Below the pieces are notes generated by a model. The model did no database searches. It saw only the letters and a list, made by a program, of their open reading frames with translations, and was not told the origin of the DNA. From Phormidesmis priestleyi ULC007 (lineage in GTDB: Bacteria > Cyanobacteriota > Cyanobacteriia > Leptolyngbyales > Leptolyngbyaceae): a stretch of DNA of 40,202 bases. Made by a program: the position numbers and the translations under genes. This document shows, one piece after another, positions 25,595-34,497 of the stretch. Within the stretch, counting starts at the first letter, position 1; each line of letters opens with the position of its first letter. The stretch lies in contig NZ_MPPI01000011.1 of NCBI RefSeq assembly GCF_001895925.1, positions 1 to 40,202 on the forward strand. The letters run 5' to 3'.

Positions 25595-26014
25595 TTATTC
25601 TGTATCTTCTGCACTTGCATCACTCCTAAGTTTGCGAGTCGCTTGAGGCTCACGAAACTGGGGCGTATCGGCTAAAACCGCGATCGTACCCATCCGCCCG
25701 GTTTTAAGGGTGGCATCCGTTAAAACATCAACGACTTCAATTCCAATCACTTCTCGAATCAACTCTGTCAGTTGAGGATTGAAAGCTTTGTCGAGATCGT
25801 CTCGCACTTGTTCTGCCAAATCTTCTTGACCACTTGCAACCAAAACTTGCTCAGTTTTAGTAATAGAATCTTCTAAAACAATAACAACTTTACCATCAAA
25901 AATTTGACACTGAACTCGACTTGGCTGCTGCCCAAGCTGAGTGCGATAGAGGGCTTGAATGCGCTGAGAAAGAGTACGTTCTAGCTGTCCACGGGTTTGG
26001 GTTTCAGAATTCAT
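25595..26014 (-). CDS. DUF2294 domain-containing protein
   Basis: A 139-residue soluble protein of the DUF2294 family, of unknown function. Family features are 'LERTLSQRIQALYRTQLGQQ', the beta strands 'VQCQIFDGKVVIVLEDSITK' and 'EQVLVASGQ', then 'LTELIREVIGIEVVDVLTDA' and the end 'RMGTIAVLAD'. A charged, probably disordered tail follows (about 120-139). It precedes gabD by 31 bp on the same strand. No ribosome binding site is obvious. Confidence 0.82.
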   Translation of the reverse strand: MNSETQTRGQLERTLSQRIQALYRTQLGQQPSRVQCQIFDGKVVIVLEDSITKTEQVLVASGQEDLAEQVRDDLDKAFNPQLTELIREVIGIEVVDVLTDATLKTGRMGTIAVLADTPQFREPQATRKLRSDASAEDTE

Positions 26015-26221
26015 AGTACATTAATCTGAAAATACAGGGTTTTAATAACTAGATAGAAGTTGCTAACTTAGTGCTGTTATTATCGCGATTGCTGAATTTA
26101 GAACAATCCATCTGAGGGCGGGTTTGAAGTCACCAAAGATTAACCAATAAGCTCTACTTTGGACTCAGAAGTCCCTAGTTTGAGTTGAGAGCGTAACTCT
26201 AAATTGGGAGTGATTTAATGT

Positions 26222-26401
26222 TTATCTCGTCTCAATGAGTCCATTGACGATCGCTAGCACGAGGGTTAACAAAATTAATGTCCACAAAACAAATCCAGGG
26301 ATAAAGGTGAGTAGCCCTACTCCTCTCAGAAGCCAAACCAGAGCCGTTAGCCCAATGACTCCCAAAAAGACAACAACCCTTGAGTTAGATGACTTGCTCA
26401 T
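26222..26401 (-). CDS. Small two-helix membrane protein
   Basis: A 59-residue frame read from ATG 26401-26399 to TAA 26224-26222. After a short polar start (MSKSSNSR) it has a hydrophobic helix 'VVVFLGVIGLTALVWLL' (9-25), a Gly/Pro turn (RGVGLLTFIPG) and a second helix 'VLWTLILLTLVLAIVNGLI' (38-56), ending ETR. The clean helix-turn-helix hydrophobic plan, the full HIP1-like core in the last codons, and the absence of any gene on the other strand support it being real. There is no ribosome binding site, which weakens the case. It resembles small membrane proteins found in many cyanobacteria but I cannot name a family. It lies 207 bp upstream of the DUF2294 gene. Confidence 0.62.
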   Translation of the reverse strand: MSKSSNSRVVVFLGVIGLTALVWLLRGVGLLTFIPGFVLWTLILLTLVLAIVNGLIETR

Positions 26402-26630
26402 AGTTTTTCACGCAATAATGCTTGTGTTTCTTGTCTCCTCACCTTTAGCAAATTTCTCTGAATCTTCATCAGAAAACAGCAGATTTTTATGGCAAGGCAT
26501 CAATTATATTGATAACTTAACGTTGGTAGGAGCGCGATCGACGACTCGTTACAATTTTTGTCGTCTACTCTGCCGCACTTATAAAATTGCCTAAATCGCC
26601 CCGTTGACCTTGCTTGAGGAGTGCTAGACC

Positions 26631-27233
26631 ATGATGACTGCATCGACAAAACCCAACCTACTTCAGGAATCTACCGAAATTTCGTTCACCATTCCAGAGA
26701 TTCGTGCTGCTCAACGCGACTCGTTGCTAAACGGTGAAATTCTACTCAAAACTCGCTCTTACACCGCTTGGGGAGGAGCCGTTACTGCCCAAATGTACCT
26801 CCCTGTCTCTCCTGCCCAAGTCTGGCAGCAGTTGACCGATTATCCTCGCTGGACGCTGTTTTTTCCTGACATCACCCGTAGCGAAGTCGTGCATAACGGA
26901 ATCAGTGGCTCTAGTACAGTGCTGAAGCGGCAGGTTAAACGCATTTATCAAAAAGCCAGCAAAGCGTTCTTGTTTCTGACGGCGCAGGTTGAGATTCATC
27001 TTAAAGTTTTAGAAACTCAACATCAGCGCATTCAGTTCTATCTTGAGTCGGGAAGTTTTCGCGATTTCAGCGCTGACTTGCAGTTACAAGCGTGTGGAGA
27101 TGGCACGATTCTCACTTACTCGGTTCAGGCGACTCCGACGATTCCGATTCCGGGAGTGTTGATTGAGCAAGCCATTCAATTTGATTTGCCAACTAATCTT
27201 AAGCAGATGCGGCGAGTCATTTGTGGAAAGTGA
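26631..27233 (+). CDS. SRPBCC superfamily protein (START/Coq10-like lipid-binding fold)
   Basis: A 200-residue protein with a helix-grip (SRPBCC) domain at about residues 40-195. 'MYLPVSPAQVWQQLTDYPRW' followed by TLFFPDI is the classical start of the fold; later strands include 'FLFLTAQVEIHLKVLE', 'RIQFYLESGSFRDF' and the closing amphipathic helix 'LIEQAIQFDLPTNLKQMRR'. Such proteins bind lipids, quinones or other hydrophobic ligands. The N-terminal 40 residues are variable. The substrate is unknown. GAGGAG lies upstream of the ATG. It precedes a PPC-domain gene by 17 bp and may share its transcript. Confidence 0.83.
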   Translation: MMTASTKPNLLQESTEISFTIPEIRAAQRDSLLNGEILLKTRSYTAWGGAVTAQMYLPVSPAQVWQQLTDYPRWTLFFPDITRSEVVHNGISGSSTVLKRQVKRIYQKASKAFLFLTAQVEIHLKVLETQHQRIQFYLESGSFRDFSADLQLQACGDGTILTYSVQATPTIPIPGVLIEQAIQFDLPTNLKQMRRVICGK

Positions 27234-27250
27234 TCAGAGCGATCGTCCTC

Positions 27251-27661
27251 ATGAAAGTCTTTGCTTTGCGACTGAAGCCCGATCAAGATTTGCGCCAAAG
27301 TTTGAAAGAGTTTGCGCTTTCAAATAATATTCAGGCGGGGTTTGTTTTGTCGGCGATCGGCAGTCTTAAACAAGCCGCAATTCGATTTGCTGACCAACCA
27401 AAGAGTCAGATTTTGCCAGGAAAATTTGAAATTCTCTCGCTCAATGGCACCTTATCAGTGAATGGGCTGCACTTGCATATTACGATCGCCGATTCAGTCG
27501 GGAACACGATCGGCGGGCACCTCGACAACGACAGCATTGTCTACACCACTGCTGAAATTGTGATCGGAGCCAGTGAAGATTTGATCTTTTTACGATCGTC
27601 CGATCCCCAAACTGGGTTTCTAGAACTCGAAATTCAAGCGGTTAAGCAGCGCGTCGAATAG
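27251..27661 (+). CDS. PPC domain-containing (DUF296) protein
   Basis: A 136-residue protein consisting of a single PPC/DUF296 domain. In plants this domain lies next to AT-hooks in nuclear proteins, and in bacteria it is found alone as a trimer. Typical parts are 'FALRLKPDQDLRQSLKEFAL', 'GFVLSAIGSLKQAAIRFAD', 'FEILSLNGTL', 'HLHITIADSVGNTIGGHL' and 'TTAEIVIG'. The H-x-H pair and G-G-H loop suggest a metal or ligand site. ATG 27251 is preferred to an upstream in-frame ATG (27221), since the domain begins right at 'MKVFALRL'. It overlaps the end of the convergent methyltransferase gene by 20 bp. Confidence 0.86.
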   Translation: MKVFALRLKPDQDLRQSLKEFALSNNIQAGFVLSAIGSLKQAAIRFADQPKSQILPGKFEILSLNGTLSVNGLHLHITIADSVGNTIGGHLDNDSIVYTTAEIVIGASEDLIFLRSSDPQTGFLELEIQAVKQRVE

Positions 27662-28397
27662 CCCGAAATCTCGACCGAGTGTAATCAGCAATCCATCCTT
27701 GACCTTCTTGGAAAAGAGTCGGACGCAGGCGATCGCGAACTTCCTCAACACAAGCCTCCCAATTGTCTGGAGGAAGCGCACAAAGAAATGGTTGGGCAAA
27801 GGTTTCGAGCCACCCAGAGATATCACCCGGAAGCGGCGTTGGACGAGAAAAGAGGACGATCGAATCCACTTCAAAGCCCTGATCTTCTAAAAGAACGCGA
27901 TACTCATCTGCTGTTGGGAAAAACCAGGGATCGTATTCTTGCGGGTTGATGCTGCGATTTTGAAGGGCTGTGTGAAGTGCGTTGCGGATCGTTGCCACAT
28001 TGCCAAACCCACCCATTTCAGCAACAAATCGACCGTTTGGTTTGAGCGATCGATAGACTTTAGCGATCGCTGTTGGTTGATCTTTAACCCAATGCAGAAC
28101 GGCATTGCTAAAGACCGCATCGAACTCCTCAACGAAGGGAAGATTTTCAGCAGTGCAGACTTCAGCTTCGAGTCCGCGCTGACGGGTCGCCTGCACTTGT
28201 TCAGCGCTGGCATCCACTCCCAGGACAAGCCCACCTGCGGCAACCAGTTTTTCTGTCAGCGCTCCGTCTCCACATCCGAGATCAAGAATTCTCTCGCCAG
28301 GAACCAATTGCAGTAAATCGAGCAGCGGTTCGCCAAGGTCAGAGACGAAACGCGCGTTCTTGGCATAACTTTCTGGATTCCAGGTTTGTTGAGTCAT
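27642..28397 (-). CDS. Class I SAM-dependent methyltransferase (Tam-like)
   Basis: A 251-residue methyltransferase. Motif I is 'ERILDLGCGDGALTEKL', the acidic residue after strand 2 is in 'LGVDASAEQV', the post-motif 'AENLPFVEEFDAVFSNAVLH' and WV are typical of the trans-aconitate/SAM methyltransferase group, and 'LKPNGRFVAEMGG' closes the core. The remainder (about 140-250) is a helical cap with 'YRVLLEDQGFEVDS'. The substrate is not evident. It is transcribed leftwards, and its 3' end overlaps the PPC gene by 20 bp. A 75-bp tandem duplication starts 13 bp upstream of its ATG. Confidence 0.87.
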   Translation of the reverse strand: MTQQTWNPESYAKNARFVSDLGEPLLDLLQLVPGERILDLGCGDGALTEKLVAAGGLVLGVDASAEQVQATRQRGLEAEVCTAENLPFVEEFDAVFSNAVLHWVKDQPTAIAKVYRSLKPNGRFVAEMGGFGNVATIRNALHTALQNRSINPQEYDPWFFPTADEYRVLLEDQGFEVDSIVLFSRPTPLPGDISGWLETFAQPFLCALPPDNWEACVEEVRDRLRPTLFQEGQGWIADYTRSRFRAIRRAA

Positions 28398-28409
28398 GAT
28401 CCGATTGGT

Positions 28410-28560
28410 TGTTTAGGCACAGTTGAGCGACGACAAATAGCACTGATACGAAGCGCTAAGACTTTACTCACCCACTCTGACCAATGTTTAGGCACAGTTG
28501 AGCGACGACAAATAGCACTGATACGAAGCGCTAAGACTTTACTCACCCACTCTGACCAAT
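28410..28560. repeat. Two-copy 75-bp tandem repeat
   Basis: A 75-bp unit beginning TGTTTAGGCACAGTTGAGCG and ending …CCACTCTGACCAA occurs twice without a mismatch (28410-28484 and 28485-28559). A third fragment, TAGGCACAGT, follows at about 28564. The unit is absent from the rest of the window. Since 75 is divisible by three the frames through it stay open, but the resulting peptide (CLGTVERRQIALIRSAKTLL…) is not a recognisable protein. It lies between the methyltransferase start and the end of the nuclease gene, a likely sign of recombination or insertion here. Confidence 0.95.
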
Positions 28561-28595
28561 TGCTAGGCACAGTGACCGCTCAAATCCGCAGCTTC

Positions 28596-30281
28596 CTATA
28601 CTCGCAGAGCGTTTTTTCTTCCTAGCTTACCTTTTTTCTTCATATACTCAGCATTTATGATACTCGACTCACTCTTGGTCAGCCAAGCACAATTATCTGG
28701 AAAGAATCCTTCATCCTTATCTATCCTAGAGAACGCCATGCTCTCTTCGGGGGGATTTCCAACATCTCGTAAGAATTGTTTGAAGTCGCGCCATGAATCA
28801 TAAATTTCTAATCTAGGAATATATTCTTTAGACTTAGGGTTGAGTGCGCCATGGATAATCCTACTCCATGCTTTGTAAGCCTTTGTTTTAGTTAGGCTCT
28901 CACCGGGTTTTGCAATTGTCTTAACGTTCACCCGACACTGACTTATTCTCTTCTTTGCCGCAGAGAGACTTATATTCCGAGTCTCAGAAAGATATATCGC
29001 TGCTTTTTCTACACTTTCAAAGCGGATATCGTCAATACAAGTAACTTTTTTGTTTGAGCCACCGCTTACGCCACCAGTAGAAATATTATACCCATTAGGA
29101 ATCAAGGTTCCAAGCTTTTTAATCCACTCCCTTTCTTTCTTTTCCAAGTCTTTTTTGGAAGTACCTCGGTCTATTTGTCGTATTTCAAAAGCATCTGAAC
29201 CATTTTCTCGGAGCGCGTAATGTAATGATTCATTTCCCTTGATATATCCAGCGAAAGCTTGTTCAACATGATATTTCCATCGACGCTCTAGAGTCTGAAT
29301 CGTCAATCCAACATATTGTTTACCGGATTTCTTATGTGTAACTAAATAGATAATACCTTCAGCATAGCCTGGGTTAGGAATACGATCAAAAGCTTCTTCA
29401 GGTGGTATGCCCGCTCTGATCCACCGAGCTATGGTGCGCCTGCTAGCTAGTGGATTTAAACACCTTATTGCTTCCTTAAGATTGGGATACTTAACTCCAA
29501 ATACTATGATCTCGCCAACTTTTCGTGAACCGCGAACATATTCTTTATCAAATATCTTTTCTTCAGATAATCCGGCTTCACGCCTTTTAAGAGATCTCCA
29601 ATAATTCACACCTAATTCCTTACATTTATTCTTGAAAGTAGTTTCGCGTTGACTATCACGGGAACAACTTGGACAATTAGTACCTCTCAAGTGGTTGCTT
29701 GGAGTTTGCCAAAACTCCCCATGTTTTGGACAGAATATTCTTCCTTTTTTGTCTACAGTTAGATACTTAAATTGACTGTAGTCATATTTATTGCCATGAA
29801 CATTTCTAGCTCGTTCAACAAACAAATTATTCAAATCTTCTTTTGATTTAACTTCACCTCTTTCCTGCTGAGAGCCAGCTAACGTAATCGATAAGCATTC
29901 GGGACATCCCGTATGTCCACCTATATGATTTCTAGGTTCTTGCAAAAAGATTATGTTATGCTCTCTACACAAAATGCTTACTTGTTCGCCGCTTTTAGGA
30001 AGCTCGATAAAAAGTGAATAGTCATATCGATTTCCGAAGTGCTTCTGCGATCGGTGGACCAACTCCTCCTTCAATATTTTTTGAGATTCAAAATAGCACT
30101 TACGACATCCAACTCCATTTTTATGATGTCCAGGAGAAATTTCAAACTCACCATGAATAGGGCATATTACCCTTATTTTTAAAGGCGAGTTGACATATTC
30201 TACCGATGAGTAATCGTAGTAATCCCCATGAGCTTGATGAAACTCTGCAATTAACTGCTGTTGTGTCTTTTTGCTGGGCAT
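28596..30281 (-). CDS. Composite nuclease: three Cys/His ribbons, GIY-YIG domain and HNH-associated C-terminal motif
   Basis: A 561-residue protein. Residues 10-206 hold three similar units, each 'hGxxYDYSxhxY…hxCPxHGxh…NHxxGxxCPxC' with four metal ligands: C40/H43/C59/C62, C105/H108/C126/C129 and C184/H187/C203/C206 (like DUF723 repeats of homing-type proteins). Residues ~255-300 look like a helix-turn-helix DNA-binding module. A GIY-YIG nuclease spans 309-402: 'GIIYLVTHKKSGKQYVGLT', Arg 333/334, Glu 383/385 and Asn 399 in 'GYNISTGG'. Residues 465-545 match the end common in phage HNH-type proteins (W..F..FL.D.G.PP..S..RID.D.G..P.NCAWLT). The gene is visibly AT-richer than its neighbours and holds no full GCGATCGC site, so it was probably acquired. 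Function is likely DNA cleavage as a free-standing homing-type or mobile nuclease. Confidence 0.8.
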   Translation of the reverse strand: MPSKKTQQQLIAEFHQAHGDYYDYSSVEYVNSPLKIRVICPIHGEFEISPGHHKNGVGCRKCYFESQKILKEELVHRSQKHFGNRYDYSLFIELPKSGEQVSILCREHNIIFLQEPRNHIGGHTGCPECLSITLAGSQQERGEVKSKEDLNNLFVERARNVHGNKYDYSQFKYLTVDKKGRIFCPKHGEFWQTPSNHLRGTNCPSCSRDSQRETTFKNKCKELGVNYWRSLKRREAGLSEEKIFDKEYVRGSRKVGEIIVFGVKYPNLKEAIRCLNPLASRRTIARWIRAGIPPEEAFDRIPNPGYAEGIIYLVTHKKSGKQYVGLTIQTLERRWKYHVEQAFAGYIKGNESLHYALRENGSDAFEIRQIDRGTSKKDLEKKEREWIKKLGTLIPNGYNISTGGVSGGSNKKVTCIDDIRFESVEKAAIYLSETRNISLSAAKKRISQCRVNVKTIAKPGESLTKTKAYKAWSRIIHGALNPKSKEYIPRLEIYDSWRDFKQFLRDVGNPPEESMAFSRIDKDEGFFPDNCAWLTKSESSIINAEYMKKKGKLGRKNALRV

Positions 30282-30357
30282 TTAGAAAATCATTCAGCTA
30301 CTACGTTCATACAAAAAAGCTCAAAAATCGGTATAACTCATAACCTGAGCAGTACAA

Positions 30358-30729
30358 CTATTGATCGAATGGGGCGATCGCTCCCTTCTCTTGATTAATC
30401 CGATCGCGCCAAATTTGATTCTGTTCGATCGTCAAAACAATTTTCTTATAAAACTCATCATCTAGTTCAAGCGTCAAATAGTTTTCGTCATGTGTGGCAT
30501 ACCAAAACTCGCGCCCGTGACTCGTATAATAAGTACCCGCCTTAATCACACCCGGAAGAAAAGTGCCTGGTAATCGGACATCTTTCCAATCAGTTTCGGG
30601 CTTTGAAATTGTTGCTTGACGAATATGATTGAGAGGAATTTCGAGCGTTTGATTAAAGAAAAATGCTAAGATTCTTTCCCAGGGATTGAGATCAATTCGT
30701 AAGCGATCGCGTTCAATTGATAACTCCAT
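30358..30729 (-). CDS. Small protein of unknown function, PH-like fold suspected
   Basis: A 123-residue soluble protein. It starts with a strand-rich part 'ELSIERDRLRIDLNPWERIL' and 'FFFNQTLEIPLNHIRQATI', then 'GTFLPGVIKAGTYYTSHGRE' and 'FWYATHDENYLTLELDDEFY', and ends with a helix. This order (strands, 'I.L.HI..A', 'P…AGTYY…G..FWY') is what bacterial PH-like domains show, but I cannot confirm it. ATG 30729 is chosen because GGAGG at 30739-30735 is five bases upstream; a GTG at 30735 overlaps that site. The start lies two bases after the stop of mnmH, so the gene appears translationally coupled to it. No function is claimed. Confidence 0.7.
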   Translation of the reverse strand: MELSIERDRLRIDLNPWERILAFFFNQTLEIPLNHIRQATISKPETDWKDVRLPGTFLPGVIKAGTYYTSHGREFWYATHDENYLTLELDDEFYKKIVLTIEQNQIWRDRINQEKGAIAPFDQ

Positions 30730-30731
30730 AG

Positions 30732-31799
30732 TCACCTCCGGTTTATCACTAATTCTTGTGCAAATTGAGATTGATTTCCGACAAAAATCTCTCTAGACTT
30801 TTCAATCAGTCGATCGACACTTTCGGCAATAGAAATCCCAGAAACATCGACTGGATAAATAGAAACCTCTCGCTTTTTCAAATCAAATAAATAGCTTTTA
30901 TCGTAATAGTTCAAAACGAGATCAATTGCAGGCGCTAAGTCACCTTGACGAATATGAGCGATCGCCGCTTGTGCATTTTGTCCGCCCAGCTTTCTACTAA
31001 TTCGCTCAGTTGCGGCAATTAGTTCTTCAGGGTCAGCCGAACCGTAGACTTCTAGCAAAATGCCGATGCGCTCAGAGCGCGAGCGCTCAACCTGCACGAC
31101 AGGCGACTCAACCATTCGCAAAAAAATCTCATCCGGCACACGACACAATCCGACGCGATGGCTTTCGGCTTCGATCCACACGGGGCGATCGCGATCGAGC
31201 GTCACCCACTGCATCGCAAGTAGATTTTCATAGTGCTCATTGGTCGGCTGTGGAGGTAGCCCCAGACTTCCATAACTGCTGCCGCGATGATTTGCCAGAT
31301 GCTCTAAGTCGAGAATTTGCTCTCCTCGATCCGCTAAAGCATTCAACAGAATCGTTTTTCCGGTGCCCGTCATGCCGCCGAGAGTGACGATCGCTTGCGG
31401 CGTTGCTAAGGTCGATCGCGCCCAACGCCGAAACGCTTTATAGCCCCCTTCTAGCAAAAAGACTTCCAGCCCCGCCGTTTCGAGCAGCCACGCTAGACTG
31501 CTGCTTCGCATTCCGCCGCGCCAGCAGTGGAGTCGAACTCGACGCTCGTCAGCCAGTTTTTTAGCCGTCTGCACCAATTGGGTGAGTTTTGGGCCGACGA
31601 GCGTTAAGCCAAGCTCGATCGCGACTTCCTTACCTTGCTGCTTATAACAAGTTCCAACTTGTGCCCGTTCGTCGTCGCTGAATAGTGGAAAACTAGTCGC
31701 TCCGGGGATGTGTCCATGTGCATATTCAGCCGGACTGCGGGCATCTAAGATAATTCCAGAAGCGTCGAAAAATTCGTCGGGAGACAGGGTTTGCGGCAT
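30732..31799 (-). CDS. mnmH: tRNA 2-selenouridine synthase (MnmH / SelU)
   Basis: A 355-residue enzyme that converts the 2-thiouridine at the wobble position of tRNAs for Lys, Glu and Gln to 2-selenouridine via a geranylated intermediate. The N-terminal half is a rhodanese domain with active-site Cys 92 in 'RLHCWRGGMRSSSLAWLL'. The C-terminal half is a P-loop NTPase-like domain with 'LGGMTGTGKTILLNAL' (P-loop about 142-149), 'ILDLEHLANHRGSSYG' and 'WIEAESHRVG'. All features look intact. The enzyme needs selenophosphate from SelD, which is not in the window; without it the protein could act as a tRNA geranyltransferase. A small unknown gene follows two bases after its stop. Confidence 0.93.
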   Translation of the reverse strand: MPQTLSPDEFFDASGIILDARSPAEYAHGHIPGATSFPLFSDDERAQVGTCYKQQGKEVAIELGLTLVGPKLTQLVQTAKKLADERRVRLHCWRGGMRSSSLAWLLETAGLEVFLLEGGYKAFRRWARSTLATPQAIVTLGGMTGTGKTILLNALADRGEQILDLEHLANHRGSSYGSLGLPPQPTNEHYENLLAMQWVTLDRDRPVWIEAESHRVGLCRVPDEIFLRMVESPVVQVERSRSERIGILLEVYGSADPEELIAATERISRKLGGQNAQAAIAHIRQGDLAPAIDLVLNYYDKSYLFDLKKREVSIYPVDVSGISIAESVDRLIEKSREIFVGNQSQFAQELVINRR

Positions 31800-31834
31800 G
31801 AAGACAGTTAAAGCAGCCAGGGTTGATCATCAAC

Positions 31835-31863
31835 AAAAAGAGGGCAGGACTTTGCCCACCCTC
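31835..31863 (-). terminator. Terminator of clpB
   Basis: On the minus strand GAGGGTGGGCA, a short loop and TGCCCTC form an imperfect hairpin (31863-31840), followed by TTTTTG. It begins ten bases after the clpB stop codon and separates clpB from mnmH. Confidence 0.62.
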
Positions 31864-31872
31864 AACCATACA

Positions 31873-34497
<2,625 letters not shown>

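Follow-up and report, generated by a model that had tools for sequence, protein, structure and literature searches.

The window, a stretch of 40,202 nucleotides from Phormidesmis priestleyi ULC007, holds on its minus strand an open reading frame (28596–30281) that starts with ATG and translates, without an internal stop, into a protein of 561 residues. From the reading frame, Pfam and PHROG matches and a predicted structure, we identified it as the whole gene of a free-standing, modular GIY-YIG endonuclease. Consistent with the composite nuclease of the original prediction, profile searches and structure prediction gave a GIY-YIG domain, zinc units and a tail from a family named HNH. A full-length AlphaFold2 model, built on a 20-row alignment, had a pLDDT of 80.0 and a pTM of 0.37, so that single domains can be read from it and their mutual arrangement cannot. 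Searched against its own genome, the nuclease gave a single match at E ≤ 0.001; solved structures searched by sequence gave no match to the 561-residue protein, the one hit having an E value of 0.42.

Three treble-clef zinc units open the protein, at residues 1–66 (30084–30281), 67–135 (29877–30083) and 147–206 (29664–29843), all on the minus strand, with CxxH and CxxC ligands at residues 40–62, 105–129 and 184–206, just as had been predicted. The model resolves the first at residues 7–66; Pfam DUF723 matches the second (residues 89–129, 22.8 bits, over the cut-off of 20.9) and DUF4379 the third (residues 184–208, 23.6 bits, just under the cut-off of 24.5). The N-terminal array, its first unit included, matches the phage endonuclease PHROGs 559 (3e-31) and 681 (4e-31). 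After the array come two helix-turn-helix-like segments on the minus strand, at residues 207–250 (29532–29663; model helices 204–223, 227–235 and 240–243) and 256–300 (29382–29516; helices 268–275, 281–289 and 294–299), and a third at residues 422–462 (28896–29018, minus strand; helices 424–434 and 439–447). Thus the predicted helix-turn-helix-like segment ahead of the GIY-YIG domain is there, but its placement only ahead of that domain does not hold. All three segments were read by eye from the model and the alignment, and none was named by profile searches. The same zinc array also occurs with another C-terminal part, weakly DUF559-like (E 0.027, below cut-off), in a Klebsiella phage (L059, 1300–2415), and with a part annotated GIY-YIG on a Cupriavidus plasmid, where VapBC genes lie upstream (L057, 1489–3063).

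The GIY-YIG catalytic domain occupies residues 306–403 (29073–29366, minus strand) and is complete, as predicted. Pfam GIY-YIG (PF01541) matches residues 309–399 with 43.7 bits against a cut-off of 22.6 (E 3.4e-11), and PHROGs 314 and 7168 match this part as well. Residues Y312, Y323, R334, H338, E383 and N399 are all present and are invariant in five of five aligned members; we take their roles to be those of the I-TevI residues, with the two Y, the R, the E and the N as the catalytic set of the superfamily. VIA-align laid residues 306–407 on the catalytic domain of I-TevI from phage T4 (1mk0, 1ln0) with a Z of 14.0 over 96 aligned residues at 2.1 Å and 29% identity, the protein ranked next scoring 7.5, and Foldseek likewise ranked I-TevI first (E 6.3e-4). 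The PADLOC profile for UzuA matches residues 311–399 only (E 1.2e-6, 26.3 bits, profile positions 186–276 of 278), and because the match is confined to the GIY-YIG domain, identity with UzuA was rejected.

Next to the nuclease gene lies a methyltransferase gene (27642–28397; Pfam Methyltransf_11) whose codon use looks native and which contains two HIP1 octamers. A 75-bp repeat lies upstream of it, at 28410–28573, in two perfect tandem copies and a partial third. This adjoining repeat, cited earlier as a sign of recent acquisition, is real, but it forms one array in its own genome (of 38 other genomes, two gave short, weak matches) and stands between the nuclease and a native-like methyltransferase, and is therefore uninformative on mobility. 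The methyltransferase also matches PADLOC mad2 (3.1e-23, residues 25–147), over a quarter of the profile, which we take as a general methyltransferase match. A restriction-modification pair was rejected, given Methyltransf_11, the native-like codons and the failure to find a copy of the methyltransferase beside other members of the nuclease family in six loci (tblastn, E ≤ 0.01). A small conserved gene at 30358–30735, beside a SelU-like gene, has no Pfam match at 1e-5 and occurs in 14 of 39 family genomes, its own included.

The composition of the nuclease gene is foreign, as the original prediction held. Among 94 ORFs of at least 150 residues, drawn from the window plus six further stretches of its genome, its GC3 of 0.321 is the lowest (mean 0.511, s.d. 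0.048, the nuclease gene counted), its codon fit is likewise the lowest, and it contains no HIP1 octamer against 50 in the window. The gene was probably acquired from elsewhere. In G001, the sole congener among the genomes searched, an unstranded stretch (27638–30387) holding both the nuclease and the methyltransferase is absent at the same place: by blastn, G001 positions 1–1487 align to 26123–27637 and 1516–2935 to 30388–31810, and in gene order the genes at 27221 and 30358 lie directly side by side. The best methyltransferase of G001 is 51% identical and sited elsewhere. Because the difference includes the methyltransferase, it does not give a clean one-gene empty site, and, seen in one congener, it may reflect insertion or deletion, in one event or two. 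A transposon was rejected, terminal repeats of a clear kind being absent. An imperfect inverted pair does bracket the gene (28049–28070 with 30374–30395, 73% complementary); each of its arms contains a HIP1 octamer and one lies within the methyltransferase gene, and two further pairs each have one arm inside the nuclease gene. We take all of these pairs as chance. An intron-borne gene was likewise rejected, since positions 26000–33000 gave no Rfam match up to E 0.1 and the ORF sits between genes; TIGR01453 (NCBIfam, group I intron endonuclease) scores 48.5 bits, under its curated cut-off of 56.05. The predicted homing-type build without an intron is thus supported, and the gene is real and unusual.

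The predicted variability among relatives was also observed. At E ≤ 1e-20, 2 of 388 genomes of the class (its own counted) carry the nuclease, and in a wider search in which 5 of 58 genomes had any match (its own included), only G000 and G004 have the full domain order. It was earlier proposed as an undescribed system; however, the same order occurs in Okeania (65% identity to the window protein), G004 (39%), a plasmid of Calothrix PCC 7716 (40%) and a plasmid of Tolypothrix PCC 7601 (39%), and, by 95% tblastn coverage, in PCC 7712 and NIES-3275. A further homologue, on Cupriavidus necator C39 p1 (L031, 5665–8852), is interrupted by a transposase gene, of the IS4 family according to the annotation of a near-identical stretch; its two pieces match the window protein at 48% and 55% identity, and we take this copy as a probable transfer between phyla. 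That region of p1 has no annotated gene in the table consulted. The Tolypothrix proteins of PCC 7601 (L032, 5995–7794) and PCC 7712 (L033, 5995–7569) are near-identical and differ at their C-termini, giving 597 and 522 residues from the ATG. Cereibacter has the GIY-YIG domain and the tail only. Searches of phages with home-made profiles gave 0 of 215 viral loci (80, 80 and 55, samples of larger sets) with an ORF that joins two of the three modules. Among 50,697 phage records, 780 match the 561-residue protein and 465 match residues 250–561, none covering 80% in either case, the best match to the latter (65% coverage, 25–28% identity) being named a homing endonuclease. PHROG 314, a homing endonuclease profile of 574 positions, is matched once across residues 309–540, through the GIY-YIG domain and beyond, with its remaining parts unmatched; there may therefore be phage proteins in which GIY-YIG is followed by a related C-terminal part.

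In Okeania SIO3I5 the nuclease gene is flanked by genes for an SDR and an aldo-keto reductase (both named by eye). Homology to congener G391 ends 16 bp past the stop codon of the SDR gene, and that to G394 picks up again 4 bp past the stop codon of the nuclease, so that the slot is filled by little beyond the nuclease gene. The corresponding slot of G391 (L070, 1858–3600) holds DarT-like and DarG-like genes, judged by eye in one contig, followed by 28 bp of the reductase start; inside the gene next to this pair there is a TnpB-like ORF. No Okeania congener was found with both flanks directly joined (in G391 the right flank is the 28-bp match before an interruption), and G389 and G390, the other congeners with the SDR gene, gave no reductase match in the stretches read. 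We compared all ORFs surrounding seven copies of the nuclease gene (window, Okeania, G004, Cupriavidus, two Tolypothrix and Calothrix) against one another at E ≤ 1e-5. The neighbours in common were those of the near-identical Tolypothrix pair, a relaxase (37%) of plasmids from Tolypothrix and Calothrix, and an SDR shared by Okeania and Cupriavidus (34%), which in Cupriavidus lies away from the nuclease. With nothing else in common, no partner gene is evident.

The C-terminal unit, 88 residues long (463–550; 28632–28895, minus strand), is assigned from its PHROG matches, a table of lost residues and the model as a degenerate, pseudo-nuclease member of an HNH-named family. The original prediction had likened it to the final half of phage HNH proteins. 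The likeness stands, as residues 462–543 match PHROG 3377, 'HNH endonuclease', at E 6.6e-16, and PHROGs 8790 and 374 match as well; the unit, however, is an entire domain that has lost a loop, rather than a final half. The domain is very common in phages, with at least 598 confirmed hits among the 600 stretches of a viral contig scan, and the best 80 of these confirmed hits (77 of the 80 ORFs distinct) formed our phage set. Their ORFs are 131–413 residues long and by eye mostly have a CxC treble-clef-like N-terminus, many also having a helix-turn-helix-like or AP2-like C-terminus. The fused tails share the order of elements and the scaffold residues of this phage family (PHROG 374/3377; treble clef, motif, then helix-turn-helix or AP2), the model of the window tail having its elements in the same order as the phage model, and differ from it in the residues considered below and in being repeated up to five times per protein. 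Two phage members were searched against Pfam: L078 had no match, and L113 matched AP2 only, below cut-off; in PHROGs, both match families that bear the name HNH endonuclease. Weak matches to Pfam PBDC1 (E 0.0055 and 0.015, below cut-off) lie in the tail regions of the G004 and Calothrix proteins.

The model of L078 had a pLDDT of 91.4. Foldseek found no PDB relative for it at E ≤ 0.001 and matched it to 173 viral models, several of them named HNH or homing endonuclease. Its top VIA match was R.PacI, an HNH restriction endonuclease (3ldy), over 81 residues at 3.0 Å, with model residues 81–175, the tail domain, taking part; the Z was 6.8, and since values under 8 may arise by chance and are within reach of unrelated folds, this match between models and structures makes kinship of the phage family with PacI suggestive only. 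The PacI motif DRSDSFEGYSPQN resembles the family motif (D/E)R.DNDG.Y.P.N, with DR...Y.P.N in common. The PacI sequence positions that we take to be the metal-holding Asp and Asn and the general-base Tyr are our own assignment. A passage in a review describes PacI as holding one metal with Asp and Asn and using a tyrosine as general base (PMC4081073). The window tail differs from PacI in lacking the matching acidic residue and in having F in place of the Y. Kinship by sequence was rejected (hhalign probability 4.8%), with no significant match, and PacI was not among the matches when profiles were searched against solved structures. The longer motif of the phage domain, YGGRGI...DR.DNDG.Y.P.NCRWAT (L077–L156), also recalls R.PacI.

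To view the tail residue by residue, we used one alignment of the 80 phage units with 11 of 13 aligned fused units; the two left out, unit 2 of G004 and unit 2 of Calothrix, also lack the YGGR loop. The patterns used in the phage search did not include the R at column 10, the YGG of the loop, the D/E, the R after it, the Q or the N. The column-10 R is found in 80 of 80 phage units and in none of the 11 fused units. The same holds for the Y (77/80) and R (79/80) of the YGGR loop, whose YGG is deleted in the fused units, for the D/E ahead of the next R (79/80) and for the Q (75/80), all of which are absent from 11 of 11. The N is present in 77 of 80 phage units and 1 of 11 fused units, and the R after the D/E in 80 of 80 and 5 of 11. 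Because the patterns did fix some columns (GI, C, W and Y.P.NC), invariance among the phage units is partly selected for the motif Y (80/80, against 7/11 fused units, with F in the other four, the window among them) and for the scaffold N and W of NCxW, kept in 80 of 80 and 11 of 11. On this comparison an active HNH tail was rejected, and the unit is probably a nuclease-family domain without an active site, kept as a DNA-gripping module.

Between the window and Okeania proteins, and in that pair only, the tail is the best conserved domain, with 74% identity and a dN of 0.16 against 68% and 0.24 for the GIY-YIG domain; zinc units 1, 2 and 3 are 70, 67 and 52% identical, the helix-turn-helix-like segments 59, 62 and 63%, and an 18-residue linker 72%. 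A decaying relic is therefore unlikely, and the tail appears still to be under selection. Synonymous differences in this pair are near saturation everywhere save in two parts, zinc unit 3 and helix-turn-helix-like segment 1 (dS ~1), which together with the low dN suggests long constraint. Since Okeania is the nearest relative found, near-saturation in most domains also gives no support to the recent acquisition that had been suggested. Against Cupriavidus the tail (57%) and GIY-YIG domain (56%) are close and helix-turn-helix-like segment 1 exceeds both (61%); against G004, Calothrix and Tolypothrix the tail (34–41%) is lower than the GIY-YIG domain (46–49%). Tail units also vary in number, with one per protein in the window, Okeania, Cupriavidus and Tolypothrix, four in G004 and five in the Calothrix plasmid protein. 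Units 1–4 of Calothrix pair best with units 1–4 of G004, at 68, 53, 71 and 76% identity, and units within Calothrix are alike at 33–52% only. The array is thus old, with divergence among its units.

Zinc arrays on GIY-YIG-type phage homing nucleases are in print, which further counts against an undescribed system. Passages of Barth et al. 2023 (PMC10448857) deal with T5orf172 homing genes of phages in which several zinc units of the CapR/DUF723 type are strung like beads, recombine with one another and vary in number; related zinc units thus stand in series beside a nuclease of the GIY-YIG superfamily. The differences are that the nuclease there is T5orf172, against the Pfam GIY-YIG domain here, and that an HNH-like tail goes unmentioned in those passages. 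By the same source, the nuclease of I-TevI is joined to DNA-binding beads, among them a zinc finger and a helix-turn-helix. I-TevI, encoded in an intron according to its PDB title, has a C-terminal binding domain, whereas the window protein is free-standing, has its binding units mostly N-terminal and adds a pseudo-HNH unit. A GIY-YIG survey of 2006 (PMC1564403) reports, in the part consulted, homing enzymes with a C-terminal NUMOD and some relatives with other domains, for example Synechocystis sll0664. Judged by titles and the openings of abstracts, we found no published description of the same fusion.

We therefore consider it probable that the gene encodes a free-standing, site-specific homing-type GIY-YIG endonuclease with the pseudo-HNH unit as a DNA-binding module. 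The I-TevI-like domain (306–403) would cut DNA, and the N-side beads, three treble-clef zinc units and two helix-turn-helix-like segments, would place the cutter, with one further helix-turn-helix-like segment and the pseudo-HNH unit as beads on the C-side. Each bead is presumed to bind DNA, the pseudo-HNH unit, drawn from a large phage nuclease family, having been retained to grip DNA rather than to cut it. The gene itself would spread through double-strand-break repair into alleles that lack it.

Another way to view the protein is as a nuclease that serves its replicon or host, in phage defence or plasmid competition, with modular recognition and without homing of its own. We judge this unlikely. 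In its favour, the cyanobacterial copies on plasmids have a ParB gene adjoining and relaxase genes near (Tolypothrix) or a mobilization gene near (Calothrix), the Okeania slot holds the DarT/DarG-like pair in a congener, the GIY-YIG part matches UzuA (E 1.2e-6), and long purifying selection would fit a host- or plasmid-serving role too. However, the UzuA match is limited to the GIY-YIG domain, the recurring neighbours are only the plasmid relaxase and the distant SDR pair, the closest structure is that of a homing enzyme, and the closest arrays belong to phage homing-type nucleases. That both the GIY-YIG domain and the tail cut, one on either side of the target, is very improbable: the tail is well conserved, matches families named HNH endonuclease and keeps the R in 5 and the Y in 7 of 11 fused units, but all 11 have lost the YGGR loop, the acidic residue and the Q, ten have lost the N, and four have F in place of the Y. 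We give scarcely any credence to a non-cutting DNA-binding regulator, such as an autorepressor left from a homing enzyme, since all five aligned members retain the GIY-YIG residues (Y, Y, R, H, E and N), despite the many binding modules and a passage on I-TevI doubling as a transcriptional repressor (PMC10448857).

On the homing-type reading that we prefer, the pseudo-HNH unit, kept and multiplied, is of greater interest than the pile-up of domains around it. A very common phage domain named HNH is brought to notice; two of its members have no Pfam match above cut-off, and no close relative turned up among solved structures. Among the window's nearest relatives, a nuclease domain without its active-site residues is kept at least as well as the adjoining nuclease of active type, and if the units read DNA, this would be a natural example of a nuclease recycled as a targeting part. 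It is conceivable, though we think it rather doubtful, that the inactivated nuclease has become a repeatable DNA-reading module, such that copy number (one, four or five) and divergence between copies set the length of target read by the GIY-YIG cutter. If true, this would constitute a new modular scheme of recognition alongside zinc fingers and TAL repeats.
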